From the NCBI GenBank assembly GCA_027492035.1, contig JAOZFT010000004.1, positions 1 through 64,000 on the forward strand: DNA of 64,000 bases. Direction: 5' to 3'. Origin of the DNA: Thermoproteota archaeon. GTDB taxonomy: Archaea; Korarchaeota; JAOZGF01; JAOZFZ01. Position numbers and translations under genes: made by a program. Under the pieces are notes generated by a model. The model was not told the origin of the DNA. It did no database searches and saw nothing but the letters and a program-made list of their open reading frames with translations. Every line of letters begins with the position of its first letter. Positions within the stretch are counted from its first letter, which is position 1. Shown in pieces: positions 9,201 to 19,275 of the stretch.

Positions 9201-11924
9201 TTATTTTAAGGTTTTAACAGCTACAATGTACCCTTTTTCAATTTTTACATTACAGGGCTGCTGTGAAAGCAGAGTAAATATTTCTTCGTCGGATAACTCT
9301 TTTGTAGTTGCAAACACTGTCTGGTTGGCTGGTAAGAGATGAATCACCCAAATAGTTTCTCCCCCCTTTACCCAGTTAAGGAGTACCTTTATTTTTTGCA
9401 CATTTACCCATTGTTCCTTTTCAATTTGCTTCTTTACCCCATAAAGTTTGTTGAATGCTTCAATAACGCTTTGGGCACCAGGTAACTGTGAAATTTCCAC
9501 TTTCTGTGCTTCAGCATCCAAAACAACAGTAGCTACATGTCTCTCAACATTCTGAACCTCTTTGTACATAGGGACCACGTAGAAAGTTTTGTTTTTCAGC
9601 CTCATAAAGAACACATTGCCGTGTCTTAATCCGCTGCCAAGCAAAGTCATCGCTTCAGCTACTTTTTCGTTACTCTCAAGCAAGTGAAGGGCTTTCACAG
9701 GCCCAACTGTATTGCTTTTCCCTATTATACCAACTCTGTAAAAAGTTATTCTTCCGAAATTTTTCCCGTGGAAAACCACGTACACACCAGCTAAGTAATG
9801 CCCTTTCAGTTCAGCCATTTGGATCCCGACAAATCTGAAAGAGTTATTTACAGGAAACATAATGTAGTAGACACCAGACCACCAAACTTCTTCACCCTTC
9901 CTTGTATCAACTGGGAAAGTGAACACATCTGTCCTTCCCTTCCAAGTGTCAAAGTCAGAAATGTGATAAAGGAAATCTGTAGCTAACTGTTTTTCAAGTA
10001 AAGGCTCTGGATACCGCCATTGTTCAATAAGCCATTGAGGAGGAGTTTGCCAGGGGTAATAGCTTCTGTAAAAGCCGTAAATTGGTTTTAAATATTTGTT
10101 CACAGTTATTTCCGGAGGTAAATAAAACTCCATGTGCCCATCATAAGAATCTACCAGAATAACTCCCAGTAATTGGAGGTAGGGTGACTGGGAGTAAGGG
10201 ATTGGCAGGTTTAGATCTATCCAAACATGTACGGCGAAATACATTTTTCCATTGTGAAAAACAGGGTATGCATCCCTGCTTTCCTCAGGCCCCACTGTTA
10301 AACCAGGCAGCAGTATATTTTCTACTCTTTCAAATGAGTTACGCAGTGTTAACAACCCGACACTTTCCTCCTGTATGAAACCGAAATGTGGAAAAAGTTT
10401 AGCGAATTTAACAAAGCCTGTAAGTCGAACATCAGGTTCCGAATTGAAGCTCCAGTTGGAAGTAGTGATTTCTTTGTATTTTGTTGTAAGGTAAACTTCA
10501 GGAATATCTCTTCCTTCACTGTAGTATATCGGGATTATACTTGAAACTCCAAGCAGTTTTTTCACTTCAGAGGGAGGAATTATTTCCCCAGTGGTTGGGT
10601 CAAGAATTATTAATCCTTCAGCGTGAGTGTAGAGTACATGTTTTTTCAACCAGTCGCCTCCTATGTAGTCTTCGTTAAGTCTCATTGGAATTATCCAGTA
10701 TTCGCTGCCTGTTTTATTAACGAAAACTATGTCACTATCAGAAGGCCTCATCCAAGATGCACCCACCAAAGGTAGAGTGCGCCGGAAAGAGGCCATATAA
10801 TCCCATATTCTTGTCTTATTTAAAACATAAGTTGAGCTTAGGTTTGTCTTTAATTGCCCCAAGTTTTCCCGATGTATAGTGTCAATCCCGGCTAAGGTTT
10901 TGGTTATATGAATTGCTTTCACGGTTTTAGTGCCCCATACCCATTCCTTTTCATAAATAGATTCCCTAATTTTGTAGTTGGTAAACCATACTCCGCCAAA
11001 AACAATGATTAAAACCAGTAACGCCAAAAAATATTTTTTAACGCATCCTTTAAAGAAATCCTTACCCAGTTTTTTTAAGTCACCATAAACTGTCAAGAGT
11101 GTTAACCCGGTCAGCCACAGCCCAGTGGCTAACAGAAAATAAAGTTTAAGAGTCGACCAAACAACGTTTTCCCACCTGGGAATAGTTAAAAAGTAATCTA
11201 TGTAAAGTATGTCAAGAATTAAAACTGCTGACAAACTCTTTTTGTAAAAATCGCGTCTGTAACTGGTTTCAGCGGTATAAAAGAGTAACCTAGCTATAAG
11301 AGAAACTGAAAATATTAATGCTACGTACCACCAGAAACTGTGGGAAACAAGGATGTTTAAGTTAGAAAGAATTTCTTCCGATGAAGTGTAAGGGTTTAAA
11401 CACCATTTTATTCCAAGCCCCACTCCTTCAAAAAGAGCAACTGGTGATTTTAGAGATAACAAGTAATTTATCAGGAAGGGGGTTGTAGCAAAAAAGAAAG
11501 AGAAGGTGATAAAGAATTGAAAAGCCCTCCAAAGGAAGGTAGCTTTCTTACTTACTTTTACTTCCTCTATCTCCTTATAGGTTTTCGAAGCCAATGCTTC
11601 CAACAAATCTGGTGGCAGAGACTTATACTTTCTTTTCTTCTCTAACCTAGCAAGTCTTTTTGAAGCTAAAAAGTTAAGGAAGGATAGAAGCAGAGACTTT
11701 GCCGGGCTTACCAACAGTGAAGGCAAAATAAACGCTAAACTTAAAATAAGGGCTAGGGATAATCTTCCTCCCCTGTAAAGGAAGAAATCTGTAATGTATT
11801 CAACCCCTGCCTTTTTACTATAAAGCTCCTGATAAATGCTTAGATCAACTAGCCATGAAGTAATCGGCATCCACAATATAAAGACAGCAACTATAAACAA
11901 AACAAGAAGTTTTTTCTTATCCAT
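9201..11924 (-). CDS. UPF0182 (COG1615) family large membrane protein
   Basis: 907 residues. The first ~320 hold about seven membrane segments. A ~590-residue extracytoplasmic part follows, with the family landmarks VLYTHAEGLIILDP and WRYPEPLLEKQLATDFLYH, recognisable as COG1615. The family is found in actinobacteria, cyanobacteria and some archaea and has no known function. ATG start with a GGGG-type ribosome site. The gene stands alone, with 160-200 bp of AT-rich sequence on each side. Length is close to the bacterial family norm of 900-1000. Confidence 0.8.
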   Translation of the reverse strand: MDKKKLLVLFIVAVFILWMPITSWLVDLSIYQELYSKKAGVEYITDFFLYRGGRLSLALILSLAFILPSLLVSPAKSLLLSFLNFLASKRLARLEKKRKYKSLPPDLLEALASKTYKEIEEVKVSKKATFLWRAFQFFITFSFFFATTPFLINYLLSLKSPVALFEGVGLGIKWCLNPYTSSEEILSNLNILVSHSFWWYVALIFSVSLIARLLFYTAETSYRRDFYKKSLSAVLILDILYIDYFLTIPRWENVVWSTLKLYFLLATGLWLTGLTLLTVYGDLKKLGKDFFKGCVKKYFLALLVLIIVFGGVWFTNYKIRESIYEKEWVWGTKTVKAIHITKTLAGIDTIHRENLGQLKTNLSSTYVLNKTRIWDYMASFRRTLPLVGASWMRPSDSDIVFVNKTGSEYWIIPMRLNEDYIGGDWLKKHVLYTHAEGLIILDPTTGEIIPPSEVKKLLGVSSIIPIYYSEGRDIPEVYLTTKYKEITTSNWSFNSEPDVRLTGFVKFAKLFPHFGFIQEESVGLLTLRNSFERVENILLPGLTVGPEESRDAYPVFHNGKMYFAVHVWIDLNLPIPYSQSPYLQLLGVILVDSYDGHMEFYLPPEITVNKYLKPIYGFYRSYYPWQTPPQWLIEQWRYPEPLLEKQLATDFLYHISDFDTWKGRTDVFTFPVDTRKGEEVWWSGVYYIMFPVNNSFRFVGIQMAELKGHYLAGVYVVFHGKNFGRITFYRVGIIGKSNTVGPVKALHLLESNEKVAEAMTLLGSGLRHGNVFFMRLKNKTFYVVPMYKEVQNVERHVATVVLDAEAQKVEISQLPGAQSVIEAFNKLYGVKKQIEKEQWVNVQKIKVLLNWVKGGETIWVIHLLPANQTVFATTKELSDEEIFTLLSQQPCNVKIEKGYIVAVKTLK

Positions 11925-13017: not shown

Positions 13018-13560
13018 ATGGTTAAAGTAGGGTTTAAGGGTAAGGTTGTCGAATACAAAACTTGCTTTTCCTCTTTGAAACAATTGAAATTATGTAGTTC
13101 ATTTTTTAAGTCTGTTGACAAAAAAGAGAAAGAGAAGCTTTCCTGGCTTCTTTCTAAAAGCTTAGTTTTAGCTTGTTTAAGTGAAATTTACCTTTACCCA
13201 CACTCTAAAATAAAAGTTGATGACTCCTCTATCCTAAAGGGGGAGAGTAAGTCTCCAGATGTAACTTTTTACCTAGGCCAGGAAGTTGTGGAGGGAGAGG
13301 TTAAAAGCAGCTCCTTCACCCTCCCAAACCCTTCCACTTACCAAGAAGAATTACTGAAAGGGTATTGTTTCGAGAAAAATGTTGTATTTATAGGTTTGTT
13401 TATAGAGAGGAATTCCTTAACAGCTAGGGTTGGAAAGTTAGTTTTGCTGGAGAACAATCAAAGACCTAACTTCTTTATTGAAAGAAGGAAACTGAGAAAC
13501 ATGGAAAGTCTAGGTTTTTTGGGGGGTGAATTCCTGTGGAGGAAAAGATTAAACCGTTAA
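13018..13560 (+). CDS. putative PD-(D/E)xK-fold nuclease-like protein
   Basis: 180 residues. No family is recognised with certainty. SPDVTFYLGQEVVEGEVKSS (about 79-98) gives Pro80-Asp81 and Glu94-Val-Lys96, the spacing and hydrophobic pattern of a PD-(D/E)xK core, preceded by a helix containing Glu56. A Cys-rich N-terminus (Cys16, 26, 52) may be structural. There is no ribosome site before the ATG, but a TATA-like AATTTTAATTTAATTTT lies about 20-35 bp upstream, so a leaderless transcript is likely. It overlaps the HerA-like gene by 25 bp, so the two should be translated together. Confidence 0.5.
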   Translation: MVKVGFKGKVVEYKTCFSSLKQLKLCSSFFKSVDKKEKEKLSWLLSKSLVLACLSEIYLYPHSKIKVDDSSILKGESKSPDVTFYLGQEVVEGEVKSSSFTLPNPSTYQEELLKGYCFEKNVVFIGLFIERNSLTARVGKLVLLENNQRPNFFIERRKLRNMESLGFLGGEFLWRKRLNR

Positions 13561-14627
13561 AGAAACTGAAGGAGTTAAAGAAGAGGTTCCACCACCCTAA
13601 AAAAATTTTTTCGTCCCCAGCTTTCCCTAATTTCTCGGTTGAGAAAAAAGATGGTGATTTTAAGTTCGGCTTCATTTACAACCCTAAAAACAAAACATTC
13701 CACGGCAACTATTTCTTAAAGAAACCATTTTCACTGTTTAACTTAACAGATGACACACAGAAACTTAACTCTTTCAATTTTTATCTTTTCAAACTTCTTA
13801 AGAATGAACCCTTCTTGGTTTTGGATTTTGACGGCTTAGTTTCTGCTTATTGCTCCACAAAGAGAGTGGAAGGTGTTTCAGTAACGGATTGGTCACACAT
13901 AAAATATATTTCCCTTAAAATAAATAGAGAAGAATTTGTTTTTACTTTAAACAGTTTGCTTTCAACCTTTTCAGGTTTCACACCTCTTCACAAAGACATC
14001 CTCTACCATGTCTTAAACATTTACTTTGAGGGAGAAAATTTTGTTCCGTTTAGAGATGTTTTAAGCGGGTTGGAGTCTTATCCTTCAGGTTCCGTAACTG
14101 ATTTAAAGGTGTTAAGCAGTATGAAACATTTAATCAGTATATTGGCATTGAAAGAGGAAAAGGAGGATTTAAAAGAGCTCTCATCCCTGCCAGAAAAGAC
14201 AGTAGTGGATTTGTCGAGTTTAAAGTTTTCACGACTCAAAATGTTCCTTTACCCTTTCATTCTCTCAAACGTATTCCATGGAGAAGATACCGGGAAAACT
14301 TTTCTTCTTACCCGCTGCAACCCCCTAAATTACTCATTAGAAAACTATTTGTCGCTAAATGACTTTGTTGAGGAGTTGCAGAAGAGAAGAAATAATTTAA
14401 TAATTAATTTTGATTTAATCCATCTTTTTGACCCTAAATTCCTTGGTTTAGCGAAAAATATAGGTTTTTTAAACCACAACATTTTTTTAAACAGAAGTTT
14501 CCTTTCTTTAGAGAGGGAGCTTGACATGAATCTACCCATATTTTTAAATTACTTGGATCAAGAAGGCATGGTGTTATTTGAAAGAGAGAGAAACCAATTA
14601 TTCCTTTTAATGCACCCCTTCTTCTAA
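13536..14627 (+). CDS. degenerate HerA/FtsK-like ATPase without a P-loop
   Basis: 363 residues. The order of elements follows HerA: EPFLVLDFDGLVS (91-103) where HerA has its conserved ViDphGEY strand, then a long helical insert, TVVDLSSL (222-229) like the vvDLS strand, and FLLTRCNPL (256-264) where Walker B should be. The segment just before, SLFNLTDDTQKLNSF (66-80), occupies the Walker A position but has no GxxGxGK[ST], and the acidic Walker B residues are absent. ATP hydrolysis is therefore unlikely. The GTG start has GGGGTGA 8 nt upstream inside the preceding gene. The assignment rests on pattern matching by eye. Confidence 0.5.
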   Translation: MEEKIKPLKKLKELKKRFHHPKKIFSSPAFPNFSVEKKDGDFKFGFIYNPKNKTFHGNYFLKKPFSLFNLTDDTQKLNSFNFYLFKLLKNEPFLVLDFDGLVSAYCSTKRVEGVSVTDWSHIKYISLKINREEFVFTLNSLLSTFSGFTPLHKDILYHVLNIYFEGENFVPFRDVLSGLESYPSGSVTDLKVLSSMKHLISILALKEEKEDLKELSSLPEKTVVDLSSLKFSRLKMFLYPFILSNVFHGEDTGKTFLLTRCNPLNYSLENYLSLNDFVEELQKRRNNLIINFDLIHLFDPKFLGLAKNIGFLNHNIFLNRSFLSLERELDMNLPIFLNYLDQEGMVLFERERNQLFLLMHPFF

Positions 14628-14641
14628 AGGTGTTAACAAAA

Positions 14642-14905
14642 ATGAGTAAGGAAAAAGAAAATAATTCTGGAATGAGTTTACCGGCTCCTGCTAAAAAATT
14701 AGATTTGAGAGGGTTAGTTTGTCCAATGCCTGACTTAAGGATAGAATTAGCTATGCAAAAACTTGAAGAGGGAGAAGTTTTAGTTGTTTACGCAGATAAA
14801 CCATTATCCCTTACTTCACTTAAGTCAAGTATGGAGGATAAAGGCTACATTTTTTTGACGCAAGTAGACAGAAACAAATTCTTTGAAATCTACATCCGAA
14901 AATGA
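14642..14905 (+). CDS. TusA-family sulfur carrier protein
   Basis: 87 residues. LDLRGLVCPMPDLRIE carries the CPxP motif of TusA/SirA/YeeD proteins, with Cys27 as the persulfide site; the rest fits the small two-layer fold. TusA-like proteins pass sulfane sulfur to tRNA thiolation, molybdenum cofactor or redox pathways. The ATG at 14642 has AAAGGTG about 9 nt upstream; a GTG at 14630 is also in frame. It follows the HerA-like gene by 14 bp, so it is probably the third gene of that operon. The link to the nuclease/HerA pair may be positional only. Confidence 0.8.
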   Translation: MSKEKENNSGMSLPAPAKKLDLRGLVCPMPDLRIELAMQKLEEGEVLVVYADKPLSLTSLKSSMEDKGYIFLTQVDRNKFFEIYIRK

Positions 14906-15442: not shown

Positions 15443-17794
15443 TTAAGAAATCGAAGTTTGTGGGAAAAGTTTTTGGGCTTGGTTATTACTTTCATTAAGT
15501 TCAGAGATCAAATTGAGGGGGTCAACAATTACGGTTACGTTGTGTTGGCCGAGAGGTAATTGCTCCTCAATTTTTAAAGTGTAGAAGTATTTTTCCATGG
15601 AAGGTAGGGGTACAGGACAAATGTTTGTGGCTAAAACTTCCCCATCAAAAAGAACTTGGAAATATATGGGAGGCTCAGCTTCCCCCTCCCCTGAGTTAAC
15701 TATTTCAAATTGTACATTGTGTAAGGTTAAATTTTCAAATACTTCGCTTAAGGCATAGTTTACTCTTAAATGTTCCACCACCAAGTCTGGAAGCTTCATC
15801 TTTTCCGCTTCAAAGTAAACTGAATCTTGATTATTTGTTTCGTTGCTTTCTGCAACTGAATTATTTGGGTCAACTGCGACTTCAATTTTGTAACGTCCAG
15901 GTGCTTCTAAACTGAAATTGAAATTTGTAATTATTTCTTCCCCGGGATCTAGATCTGGAAGTTTCAGTTCTTGTTCATTCACCAATTCCTCTTCCCAATA
16001 CAGTTTAAATTTAACAGTGGTTGGTGGAGAGGAGGTGTTGCCCTCATTTTTTATTTTAACAGTTGCTTTAGTGGAGATCGGCGCCTGAACCTTAGGTGGA
16101 GGGGCCTCTATTTTTTCAATTTTCAGGTCAGGTTTATTTTTAGGTTTAACTGGAGAGACTGTCTTGCTTGAAATCAGGTATCCATAGTTTGTATGGTTTT
16201 TTCCAGTCACATGGATAAGTATTTCCTTTATTTCGTTAGGTTTCTCCGCCACAATTTTTAATTTGAAGTTTAAAACTTTACCCACTGGTAAAGCTTCTTT
16301 TCCATAAAGCCTTAACCCTCCCGGGATTCTTTCACTACCCCACCCTGGGATCGGTTCAATAACTCCTGCACTTTTCCATTTAGGTTTTTGTTCATTAAAG
16401 AAGATTTCAAGATCATACACTTTGTTACTGTAGGGAAGAAGCGGTATAACCTTGAAAAACTCGACGCTAACAGTTATCACATCATCTTTAACTGAAAAAT
16501 TTGATTCACAAGCTGTCAATATTTGTTTCTGCGGAGTTGGAGATGTAGGGGAAGGTTTTACAGTAGGAGGGAGTGGAGGGGGAGGAGTGAATGTTTCAGT
16601 AGGTGAGGGAGTAGGGGGTGGTGGAGAAATCCTTGATGAGGAAATTTCTGGGTTTAAATCTTTTCCTTCAAGCCCGTTTAAAACAATTCTTTTAGCTTTG
16701 CTCCAGTTCCCTCTCCAAACAGAGTAGTAAATTTCTCCTCCTTTCTCAGTACTCCACCACACAGTTAATGCTTTGCCACTTTGAAGAAAGACTACAGCAG
16801 GCCTATAATCTGTTGTCCCTGAGTTGGCTGCAAAACCTGATTTAAAGTTTCCACATTCATAAGAAGACCAAACGTCCCCATTATTTTCAGTATTTACATA
16901 GGTAACTATTGCGCAGTCACGGGAGTCGCAGTCAGTTTCAGGCATCTGCATGTAACCTATGGTTTGAGGCTTAGTCCATGAAACACCGTTCCAAATAGAA
17001 AACATTACTTCTCCGTTTTCAGTTGACCAAACAGCTTTTACACTTCCGTGTTCCGAAATGCCACATCTAAAAACAGTGTAGGTATGAAAGTCACTCACTG
17101 CATTTCTGGTTTGGAGGGGGATGGGTTGAGGCTGACACCATTTATTTCCATTAAACCTAGAATAGAAAATTTTTGTTATGTTAGAGGAAGTAGAGTCTGA
17201 CCAAATTGCTATTGCCGACGGCTTTTCTTCATTTTCGTAGGTGATTTCAGGGAGAGAGGCTGTGTAAAGGGTGTAGTTTGGAGTTAACGATTTTGCCTGG
17301 CTCCATTTACCAATTAGTTTATTATATGTTGAGTAATACATTAATCTTTTACCATTTTCCACATGCACCCAAACACAAACAGCTTCCCCTTTAGAATTAT
17401 AAGCAACATCCGGGTCGATATCTAAACCCGGAATTTGACATAAAGGTTTTGCAGGTGTCCAAGTGAAATTATTTAGACTCCATATTGAGTAATATATGTC
17501 ACCGGTTTCCTGGTTTGACCACACAGCAATTGCGGAGTCATGCGGCCCAAACTCTATGTTGGGGTCGTAGTCATTACCCTTAAGAGTAGAGATAGGTGAA
17601 GCTGTGCCGTTTAGAGTCCACCACTGCTCCCTTGCATCATCCCAAATAGAGTACCAAATATCCCAGTCTTGTTTAGTGTAATGTTGCCAGACAGCAATAG
17701 CATCAACTTCCCCTTTCGGCGGGGAAGGCTGACCTAAACAACCAAAAAGAAAAGTTAAAACAATTAAGCCAATAAGAAAAGGGGGTTTCTTCAT
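15443..17794 (-). CDS. large surface lipoprotein: propeller-like repeats plus two CARDB domains
   Basis: 783 residues. A signal peptide ends in the lipobox LFGC (Cys19). Residues ~30-390 hold six or seven repeats of the type AVWS...DIYYSIW, which suggests a beta-propeller. A Pro/Thr/Ser-rich linker (~395-425) follows, then a beta domain (~430-545). Two CARDB-type adhesion repeats finish the protein, each with PDL...NEGN and VDPxNxxxExNExNNQ strings (~550-660 and ~670-775). It is probably displayed on the outer face and binds polymer or protein. It is monocistronic. The forward ORFs opposite it are shadows. Confidence 0.75.
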   Translation of the reverse strand: MKKPPFLIGLIVLTFLFGCLGQPSPPKGEVDAIAVWQHYTKQDWDIWYSIWDDAREQWWTLNGTASPISTLKGNDYDPNIEFGPHDSAIAVWSNQETGDIYYSIWSLNNFTWTPAKPLCQIPGLDIDPDVAYNSKGEAVCVWVHVENGKRLMYYSTYNKLIGKWSQAKSLTPNYTLYTASLPEITYENEEKPSAIAIWSDSTSSNITKIFYSRFNGNKWCQPQPIPLQTRNAVSDFHTYTVFRCGISEHGSVKAVWSTENGEVMFSIWNGVSWTKPQTIGYMQMPETDCDSRDCAIVTYVNTENNGDVWSSYECGNFKSGFAANSGTTDYRPAVVFLQSGKALTVWWSTEKGGEIYYSVWRGNWSKAKRIVLNGLEGKDLNPEISSSRISPPPPTPSPTETFTPPPPLPPTVKPSPTSPTPQKQILTACESNFSVKDDVITVSVEFFKVIPLLPYSNKVYDLEIFFNEQKPKWKSAGVIEPIPGWGSERIPGGLRLYGKEALPVGKVLNFKLKIVAEKPNEIKEILIHVTGKNHTNYGYLISSKTVSPVKPKNKPDLKIEKIEAPPPKVQAPISTKATVKIKNEGNTSSPPTTVKFKLYWEEELVNEQELKLPDLDPGEEIITNFNFSLEAPGRYKIEVAVDPNNSVAESNETNNQDSVYFEAEKMKLPDLVVEHLRVNYALSEVFENLTLHNVQFEIVNSGEGEAEPPIYFQVLFDGEVLATNICPVPLPSMEKYFYTLKIEEQLPLGQHNVTVIVDPLNLISELNESNNQAQKLFPQTSIS

Positions 17795-17980: not shown

Positions 17981-18517
17981 TTGAGGGAAGAGGTTATACC
18001 CCTCTACGCTCAGGCAGTGATAAGTTTAAACTTTGATGGAGAAATAAAAGAAGTGTTGATTTTTGACTACTTAGACCCTGAACTTTATTATTTTAACCTT
18101 AAGAGGGACAAAACTAAGTTTGAAAAGGAGAAAATGAGCTTATGGAAAAGAATGCAGGGTTTCATAGATAAAGAAACTGCGTTCCTTAACGGTGAAGAAG
18201 TTTTTTCAGTAATTGAACAAGTAGAAATAGGTTTTAGGGGAAGGAAGGAAACCCCCTTCATTTTATTCCTTATTTCAACACTTGCCCCTTTAAAGGAGGG
18301 TGAAAATATCTACGAAGTTTTCTATGAAAATGAAACGCTTGACTACGACGTTTTTTCCATCTGGTTCTTTCCCCTCAGAACCGAAATAACTGAAGTAATT
18401 TCGAACCTTAAACACTTCACTGAAAAGAATTTTTTAATTTTCCATGGAAGGAAAGGGACAGAGCTTGAAGGATACGAGAAAATCTGTTTTAACATAAAAA
18501 AGGAGGGATTTTGTTGA
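17981..18517 (+). CDS. unknown protein translationally coupled to nucS
   Basis: 178 residues, not recognised. It is soluble and acidic, with no Cys cluster and no nucleotide-binding motif. Hydrophobic beta-like segments (AQAVISLNFDGEIKEVLIFD, then PFILFLISTLAPL and IWFFPLRTEIT) suggest a compact alpha/beta fold. The TTG start lacks a clear ribosome site. Its stop TGA overlaps the nucS TTG by 4 bp, so the two are co-translated. That makes a role with the mismatch endonuclease or in the same repair process plausible, though only by position. Confidence 0.65.
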   Translation: MREEVIPLYAQAVISLNFDGEIKEVLIFDYLDPELYYFNLKRDKTKFEKEKMSLWKRMQGFIDKETAFLNGEEVFSVIEQVEIGFRGRKETPFILFLISTLAPLKEGENIYEVFYENETLDYDVFSIWFFPLRTEITEVISNLKHFTEKNFLIFHGRKGTELEGYEKICFNIKKEGFC

Positions 18518-19275
18518 AGTTAAGAATTAACCCTTCACTAGAGGAAACTGAGGAATTTCTTAATGAAAACATCGCCAAAAAGAGATTCATTATCTTGCTA
18601 GGTTCCTGTAAAGTTGACTACATTGGCCGTGCAAAGTCTACGTTAACACAAGGAGAAAGAGTGATACTTATTAAAAGGGATGGGTCAGTTCTTATTCATA
18701 AAGGGACAGGTTACCAACCTGTTAATTGGCAGCCTCCACCATGCACTGTTTCAGCGAAAAGAGAAGGGGATTCTTTGAAAGTGACAGCTTTAAGAATAAA
18801 ACCTTTAGAGAAACTGGAAATTCATTTTTCCAAAATAAACCTGGTTCTTGCATTTCACTTACAAGATGAAGGAGTTTTTGACTTGCTGCTTCAGGAGGAA
18901 GTAATGAAGAAAGCTGTGTTAACAAAACCAGAAATTTTGGAACAAGGTTTTAAACCGTTAGAAACAGAAAAGAGAATTAATTCAGGGTTTATTGACTTGT
19001 ACGGTTTAGATAGGGAAGGAAAACCTGTAATTGTGGAGTTTAAAAGGAGAAAAGCTGAAAAAGAGGATGTAGACCAGCTTTTGACTTACGTGGCAGAGAT
19101 GGAATCTAAAGGGAAAAGAAAAATTAGAGGCGTGTTAGTTGCTCCTTCAATTTCAAAACCTGCTTACGCTTTAGTCCAGAAGAATAATTTGGAGTTTAAG
19201 AAGTTAACCCCTAAAGAATGTCAGGAAATGATGAAACATAAAACAATTAAGATAACTGAGTTCTTTAAAGAATGA
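18514..19275 (+). CDS. nucS: mismatch-specific endonuclease NucS/EndoMS
   Basis: 253 residues. The N-terminal DNA-binding/dimerisation domain (about 1-115, with GSCKVDYIGRAKSTL and IHKGTGYQPVNWQPPP) and the C-terminal RecB-like nuclease domain are both present. In the nuclease domain GFIDLYGLDREGKPVIVEFK gives the catalytic Asp, Glu and Lys, and VDQLLTYV follows. The archaeal enzyme cuts both strands at mismatches. The TTG at 18514 sits 6 nt after AGGAGGG, and a TTG at 18511 is also possible but too close. The end is about 15 bp from the convergent dph6 gene. Typical C-terminal PCNA-binding residues are not obvious. Confidence 0.9.
   Translation: MKLRINPSLEETEEFLNENIAKKRFIILLGSCKVDYIGRAKSTLTQGERVILIKRDGSVLIHKGTGYQPVNWQPPPCTVSAKREGDSLKVTALRIKPLEKLEIHFSKINLVLAFHLQDEGVFDLLLQEEVMKKAVLTKPEILEQGFKPLETEKRINSGFIDLYGLDREGKPVIVEFKRRKAEKEDVDQLLTYVAEMESKGKRKIRGVLVAPSISKPAYALVQKNNLEFKKLTPKECQEMMKHKTIKITEFFKE

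Follow-up and report, generated by a model that had tools for sequence, protein, structure and literature searches.

Layout of the locus and the gene pair

Within the window, by which we mean the whole 64,000-nucleotide stretch of DNA analysed here, a gene for a predicted nuclease (gene 1) is followed on the same strand by a gene for a HerA-like protein without ATPase motifs (gene 2) and by a gene for a TusA-like sulfurtransferase (Table 1). The open reading frames of genes 1 and 2 overlap by exactly 25 bp, and gene 2 starts with GTG. The segment GGGGGGTGA ends 6 nt upstream of this GTG, a position which fits translational coupling of the two genes. The third gene was identified by its match to Pfam TusA (E=1e-17); its ATG lies 14 bp after the stop codon of gene 2, and the alternative GTG start lies 2 bp after it. 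The count of TATA-box patterns was at chance level, and for this reason no promoter is claimed. A preliminary description of this DNA had given the same coordinates, the 25-bp overlap and the 14-bp spacing to TusA, and had placed Pro80, Asp81, Glu94 and Lys96 of gene 1 and the segment NLTDDTQKLNSF, where Walker A belongs in gene 2, just as we find them.

Table 1. Coordinates of the gene pair and associated features in the window
Feature	Position	Strand	Evidence and remarks
Gene 1	13018..13560	+	180-aa PD-(D/E)xK nuclease (very likely); E56, P80-D81, E94, K96; basic, pI about 9.5
P80 to K96 codons, PD...ExK catalytic motif	13255..13305	+	Sequence; P80, D81, E94, K96 invariant in three orthologues
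GGGGGGTGA, possible ribosome-binding site within gene 1	13521..13529	+	Sequence; putative function
Gene 2	13536..14627	+	363-aa FtsK-HerA superfamily core (predicted) without ATPase motifs, no space for HAS barrel; basic, pI about 8.7
NLTDDTQKLNSF codons, segment at the Walker A position of gene 2	13740..13775	+	P-loop lost in all three orthologues
TusA-like sulfurtransferase gene	14630..14905	+	Likely ATG 14642; operon neighbour, not a constant part

Gene 1 encodes a probable PD-(D/E)xK nuclease

The residues E56, P80-D81, E94 and K96 of gene 1 are invariant in the three orthologues, that is, those of the window and of the two related genomes described below. An AlphaFold2 model built from these three sequences had a pLDDT of 85, and Foldseek returned as its best matches HincII, archaeal Hjc, RecU and viral cap-snatching endonucleases, none of them significant alone (best E 0.009). 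Structural realignment gave Z 6.6 for the SPARDA nuclease and Z 6.3 for Hjc (97 residues, 3.2 A), together with DpnI, MspI and EcoRV; a few phosphopantetheinyl transferases are mixed into the same list at Z about 5. The fold of the model and the invariance of these residues together make it very likely that gene 1 is a PD-(D/E)xK nuclease with intact catalytic residues, and the structure prediction therefore bears out the preliminary description of gene 1 as nuclease-like.

We found no Pfam match for gene 1, which is thus neither a Pfam NurA nor a Pfam Hjc. A NurA search of the window's own genome returned only loci other than gene 1, and Hjc scored above the cut-off at another locus in all seven genomes tested. 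Judged by its sequence, gene 1 is neither NurA nor a canonical Hjc. Comparison of both proteins of the pair with Pfam, PHROGs, PADLOC-DB, NCBIfam and PDB sequences gave nothing convincing, and weak matches to LEDGF, GCN2 and a tail protein were discarded.

HerA ancestry of gene 2

Gene 2 has no significant sequence match in Pfam, NCBIfam or the PDB, its structure model is of low confidence (pLDDT 45), and a profile of eight diverse ATPases, tried first, matched it weakly. These observations would suit an explanation in which gene 2 is no relative of HerA and the likeness is a generic resemblance among alpha/beta folds. We consider this very improbable, since two independent methods agree on the relationship across almost the full length of the protein. 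All of the top eight Foldseek matches were VirB4 or HerA-NurA chains (E 1.5e-4 to 0.09), VirB4 (PDB 4ag5) giving the lowest value and Z 10.6 on realignment. The best structural match was the C-terminal HerA/FtsK domain of DndH (PDB 7es4; Z 11.9, 4.2 A over 249 residues), and the top 33 rows of the realignment, two of which are titled just 'a bacterial protein', comprised DndH, VirB4, TrwB, HerA, SIR2-HerA, DUF4297-HerA, TdpAB and Cag-beta and stood above every other fold, unrelated alpha/beta folds included.

The second method, which is independent of the structure model, compared gene 2 with a profile built from 25 DUF87/HerA-type ATPases that DUF87 had retrieved in the phylum, and with its shuffled controls it supersedes the eight-sequence comparison. 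The match had a probability of 84.5% and a score of 48.8 over 262 columns, against 17 for the reversed profile, at most 25 for 200 column shuffles and at most 33.3 for 200 block shuffles; a global alignment of gene 2 to the profile covered 337 columns. Single HerA sequences match gene 2 poorly; the closest comes from genome G017, a HerA-like protein that carries a hydrophobic segment at its N-terminus (E 0.008). Profile and predicted fold together show gene 2 to be a full-length FtsK-HerA superfamily core of HerA-type DNA translocase descent, in agreement with the likeness to HerA first noticed from its order of strands. In gene 2 the part before the Walker A position is about 68 residues long, whereas in most of the phylum's HerA proteins it measures 145-260, and this short N-terminus leaves no space for a HAS barrel.

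In the course of these comparisons we noted other unusual HerA-type proteins. Several genomes of the phylum encode large HerA/VirB4-like ATPases with N-terminal hydrophobic segments (L096 4520-7192; L019; L021; L088), and one of these, in G017, adjoins a gene resembling transcription factor B. Another HerA-type ATPase is much extended at its C-terminus and shares with gene 2 a very short N-terminus (L094 10023-11855 and L031 1432-3291); it is 63% identical between the window's own genome (G000) and G001, and no nuclease partner was found beside it in G000.

Loss of the motor

Motif positions were read from the alignments, in which columns away from D97 depend on the alignment by a residue or so: at the place of Walker A (GxxGxGK[ST]) the three orthologues read LTDDTQKL, LSPDKTKL and LADREQPV, no suitable residue lies nearby in any of them, and the global alignment places the GxTGSGKS loop opposite a shortened segment of gene 2, TDDTQ. 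The place of Walker B (hhhhDE or EE) is taken by FLLTR, IIVSR and IVLKD, with no invariant residue; the DE pair aligns to T-R in gene 2 and to S-R and K-D in the other two orthologues, the glutamate being replaced by R, R and D. The arginine of RGRK and the sensor glutamine are likewise missing, their columns holding Q282 (Q/K/L across the orthologues) and D293 (D/D/N). The sole remnant of the ATPase motifs in gene 2 is the D and G of DxxGEY (D97, G100). Loss of the P-loop and of the Walker B acids, previously described for the window's protein, hence holds for all three orthologues, and since it is common to them it most likely predates the diversification of the order.

Other parts of the protein have been retained. 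Invariant residues number 13 of 49 in the N-terminal block, 13 of 41 in residues 145-185 and 8 of 18 in the C-terminal NLPxFLxxLD block, most of the invariant positions falling in residues 21-65, 145-185 and 330-341. Retention of these blocks while the ATPase motifs were lost indicates selection on gene 2 for a function that does not involve the use of ATP. We regard it as almost certain that the locus combines a nuclease with intact catalytic residues and a dead HerA.

Distribution and genomic context of the pair

The pair was present in all three genomes examined of its order, namely the window's own, one of the same family (G001) and one of the same order (G002), which answers the call of the preliminary description for a survey of its conservation. 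The nuclease and dead HerA reading frames are intact, adjacent and in the same order in the two other genomes at 31-37% identity, a conservation which argues for purifying selection and a functional link; the junctions across the three pairs are the 25-bp overlap, an overlap of 37 bp and a gap of 7 bp. Searches with single proteins and with three-orthologue profiles found no pair in 391 other genomes, 26 of them from the same phylum. When 84,980 species genomes were scanned from motif seeds, a procedure that detects only relatives sharing the seed motifs, solely the two relatives were returned, both deposited as 'Thermoproteota archaeon'. Nothing turned up either among viral contigs in seeded scans with each profile, among plasmids searched with gene 2 or among phages searched with gene 1. 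In the genomes searched, genes 1 and 2 occur only together, and the pair is so far known from three genomes of one uncultured archaeal order. Weak matches were rejected: by sequence, L015 in G000 is a glycerophosphodiester phosphodiesterase-like protein and L014 in G020 a glycosyltransferase-like protein, both taken as chance, and gene 1 matches in G105 and G281 are interrupted by stops.

The tight pairing, the constant co-occurrence and the intact catalytic residues of the nuclease would also be expected if gene 2 were an inhibitor or chaperone, antitoxin-like, which keeps gene 1 inactive until a signal arrives. We consider this unlikely. Gene order and coupling are not diagnostic of such a relationship, and presence in every genome of the order, with a neighbourhood common to two of them and no pair in the searches of plasmids, phages and viral contigs described above, is unlike the behaviour of mobile toxin-antitoxin pairs.

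The window and G001 have a common gene order: an asparagine synthase-like gene, the nuclease, the dead HerA, TusA, a 178-aa orphan, the NucS endonuclease and Dph6. This block carries extra inserted genes in the window relative to G001, where it adjoins a ribosomal protein cluster. The G002 pair is flanked by a zinc-ribbon gene and a phosphoribosyltransferase-like gene, with NucS at another locus away from the pair. TusA adjoins the pair in the two genomes of one family, the window's own and G001, and not in G002; TusA is therefore no constant partner, and the constant unit consists of the two genes alone.

Several neighbours merit mention in their own right. The 178-aa orphan (17981-18517) has no family match and is 47% identical in G001, where it lies between TusA and NucS; in the window it directly precedes NucS, and it was absent from 29 other genomes searched, G002 included. 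NucS (18511-19275; NCBIfam E 3e-82) is shared by the order's three genomes and G017, and was absent from three tested genomes of the phylum's main family. Between TusA and the 178-aa gene, on the opposite strand, a 783-aa CARDB-repeat protein with a proline-rich linker (15443-17794) breaks up the block that is contiguous in G001. Upstream of the pair lies a 907-aa UPF0182 membrane protein (9201-11924), whose match covers the middle and C-terminal part only (E 3e-9).

A pairing of a PD-(D/E)xK nuclease with HerA is known from anti-phage defence (PMC11291478), and the best structural match of gene 2 is a domain of DndH. Both facts would suit a defence system, with the pair a stripped-down relative of DUF4297-HerA or SIR2-HerA, and the preliminary description had looked towards defence islands. 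That link was not borne out. Neither protein of the pair matched PADLOC-DB, and the matches of neighbouring genes were generic or marginal (NucS to Cas4-like nucleases; TusA, E 6e-4; the asparagine synthase-like gene, E 0.0035). The pair lies in the core chromosome among housekeeping neighbours and not in a defence island. A role in defence is in our judgement quite improbable, given this setting, the occurrence throughout the order and the requirement of DUF4297-HerA for its ATPase (PMC11291478).

A possible ATP-independent nuclease complex

The reading that we consider best, with a probability of about one half, is that genes 1 and 2 form a single ATP-independent nuclease complex in which the dead HerA serves as a DNA-binding scaffold or clamp. 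Gene 2 descends from a HerA-type DNA translocase, no longer has the motifs with which ATP is bound and hydrolysed, and probably retains the duplex DNA binding and oligomerisation of the superfamily; family membership and charge, both proteins being basic, suggest that it binds DNA. As a fixed clamp or platform working without ATP, it would dock the gene 1 nuclease, dimerise it on particular DNA structures or sites and activate it, the motor having been removed and the platform kept. From the genomic context we infer a role in housekeeping genome maintenance rather than defence. More tentatively, we suggest that one order turned a translocase-nuclease machine into a constitutive, motorless nuclease, with HerA as the DNA clamp that licenses a PD-(D/E)xK endonuclease for genome maintenance.

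The window's own genome also carries several active HerA-type ATPases, three NurA genes, a canonical HerA-NurA and Hjc. Replacement of a missing Hjc or HerA-NurA by the pair is ruled out, since the genome has both, and the pair adds to the usual machinery. Around the HerA genes nearest to gene 2 in sequence or architecture we found no active paralogue with the same nuclease partner.

The presence of these active ATPases and NurA genes raises another explanation, in which gene 2 joins an active HerA of the cell in a mixed ring, as a subunit without catalytic function, and brings gene 1 to that ring. Ring ATPases commonly combine active with inactive subunits. We nevertheless judge this rather improbable: gene 2 lacks a HAS barrel, has diverged so much that no single HerA of the genome matches it significantly, and is encoded far away from each of them.

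HerA and related proteins are known for pumping DNA to nucleases at the expense of ATP. Conservation of a standalone HerA that lacks the ATPase motifs, next to an intact nuclease, would mean that binding or assembly alone can be reason enough to keep the fold. The pair offers a natural test of HerA's share in nuclease activation apart from translocation, with the roles of scaffold and motor separated.

Comparison with known systems

The anti-phage system DUF4297-HerA (PDB 8ziq-8zis) consists, like the pair, of two genes, one for a PD-(D/E)xK nuclease and one for a protein of the HerA family. Its nuclease is dimerised and activated by assembly on HerA, and the ATPase is required as well (PMC11291478). 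HerA is active there and has a HAS domain, whereas here it is dead and short; the nuclease there has a C-terminal docking domain, whereas gene 1 has 180 aa and its context is not one of defence. In the pair the motifs of an active HerA ATPase are lost, and no DUF4297 domain was found by Pfam or PADLOC-DB. The HAS barrel is the nuclease-docking domain of DUF4297-HerA, and docking here would therefore have to differ.

Archaeal HerA-NurA resembles the pair in that a nuclease gene adjoins a HerA-family gene in an archaeal chromosome, but NurA belongs to another nuclease family, unmatched by gene 1. VirB4 and the C-terminal domain of DndH (PDB 4ag5, 7es4), the best structural matches of gene 2, differ in being P-loop ATPases within larger proteins or systems.

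Degenerate motors retained for other purposes are known elsewhere. The DUF domain of EccC5 is a degenerated ATPase domain retained within the superfamily (PMC11154593); it resembles gene 2 as an FtsK-side member with a degenerate ATPase site, and differs in being one domain of a larger secretion ATPase and not the partner of a nuclease. In the helicase-nuclease AddAB, the former motor domain of AddB is retained for recognising DNA and not for moving along it (PMC4824097). AddB differs in its SF1 helicase fold and in having an active motor partner, whereas no active motor is encoded beside the gene pair. By analogy, gene 2 may stand to HerA-nuclease machines as the motorless helicase-like domain of AddB stands to AddA.
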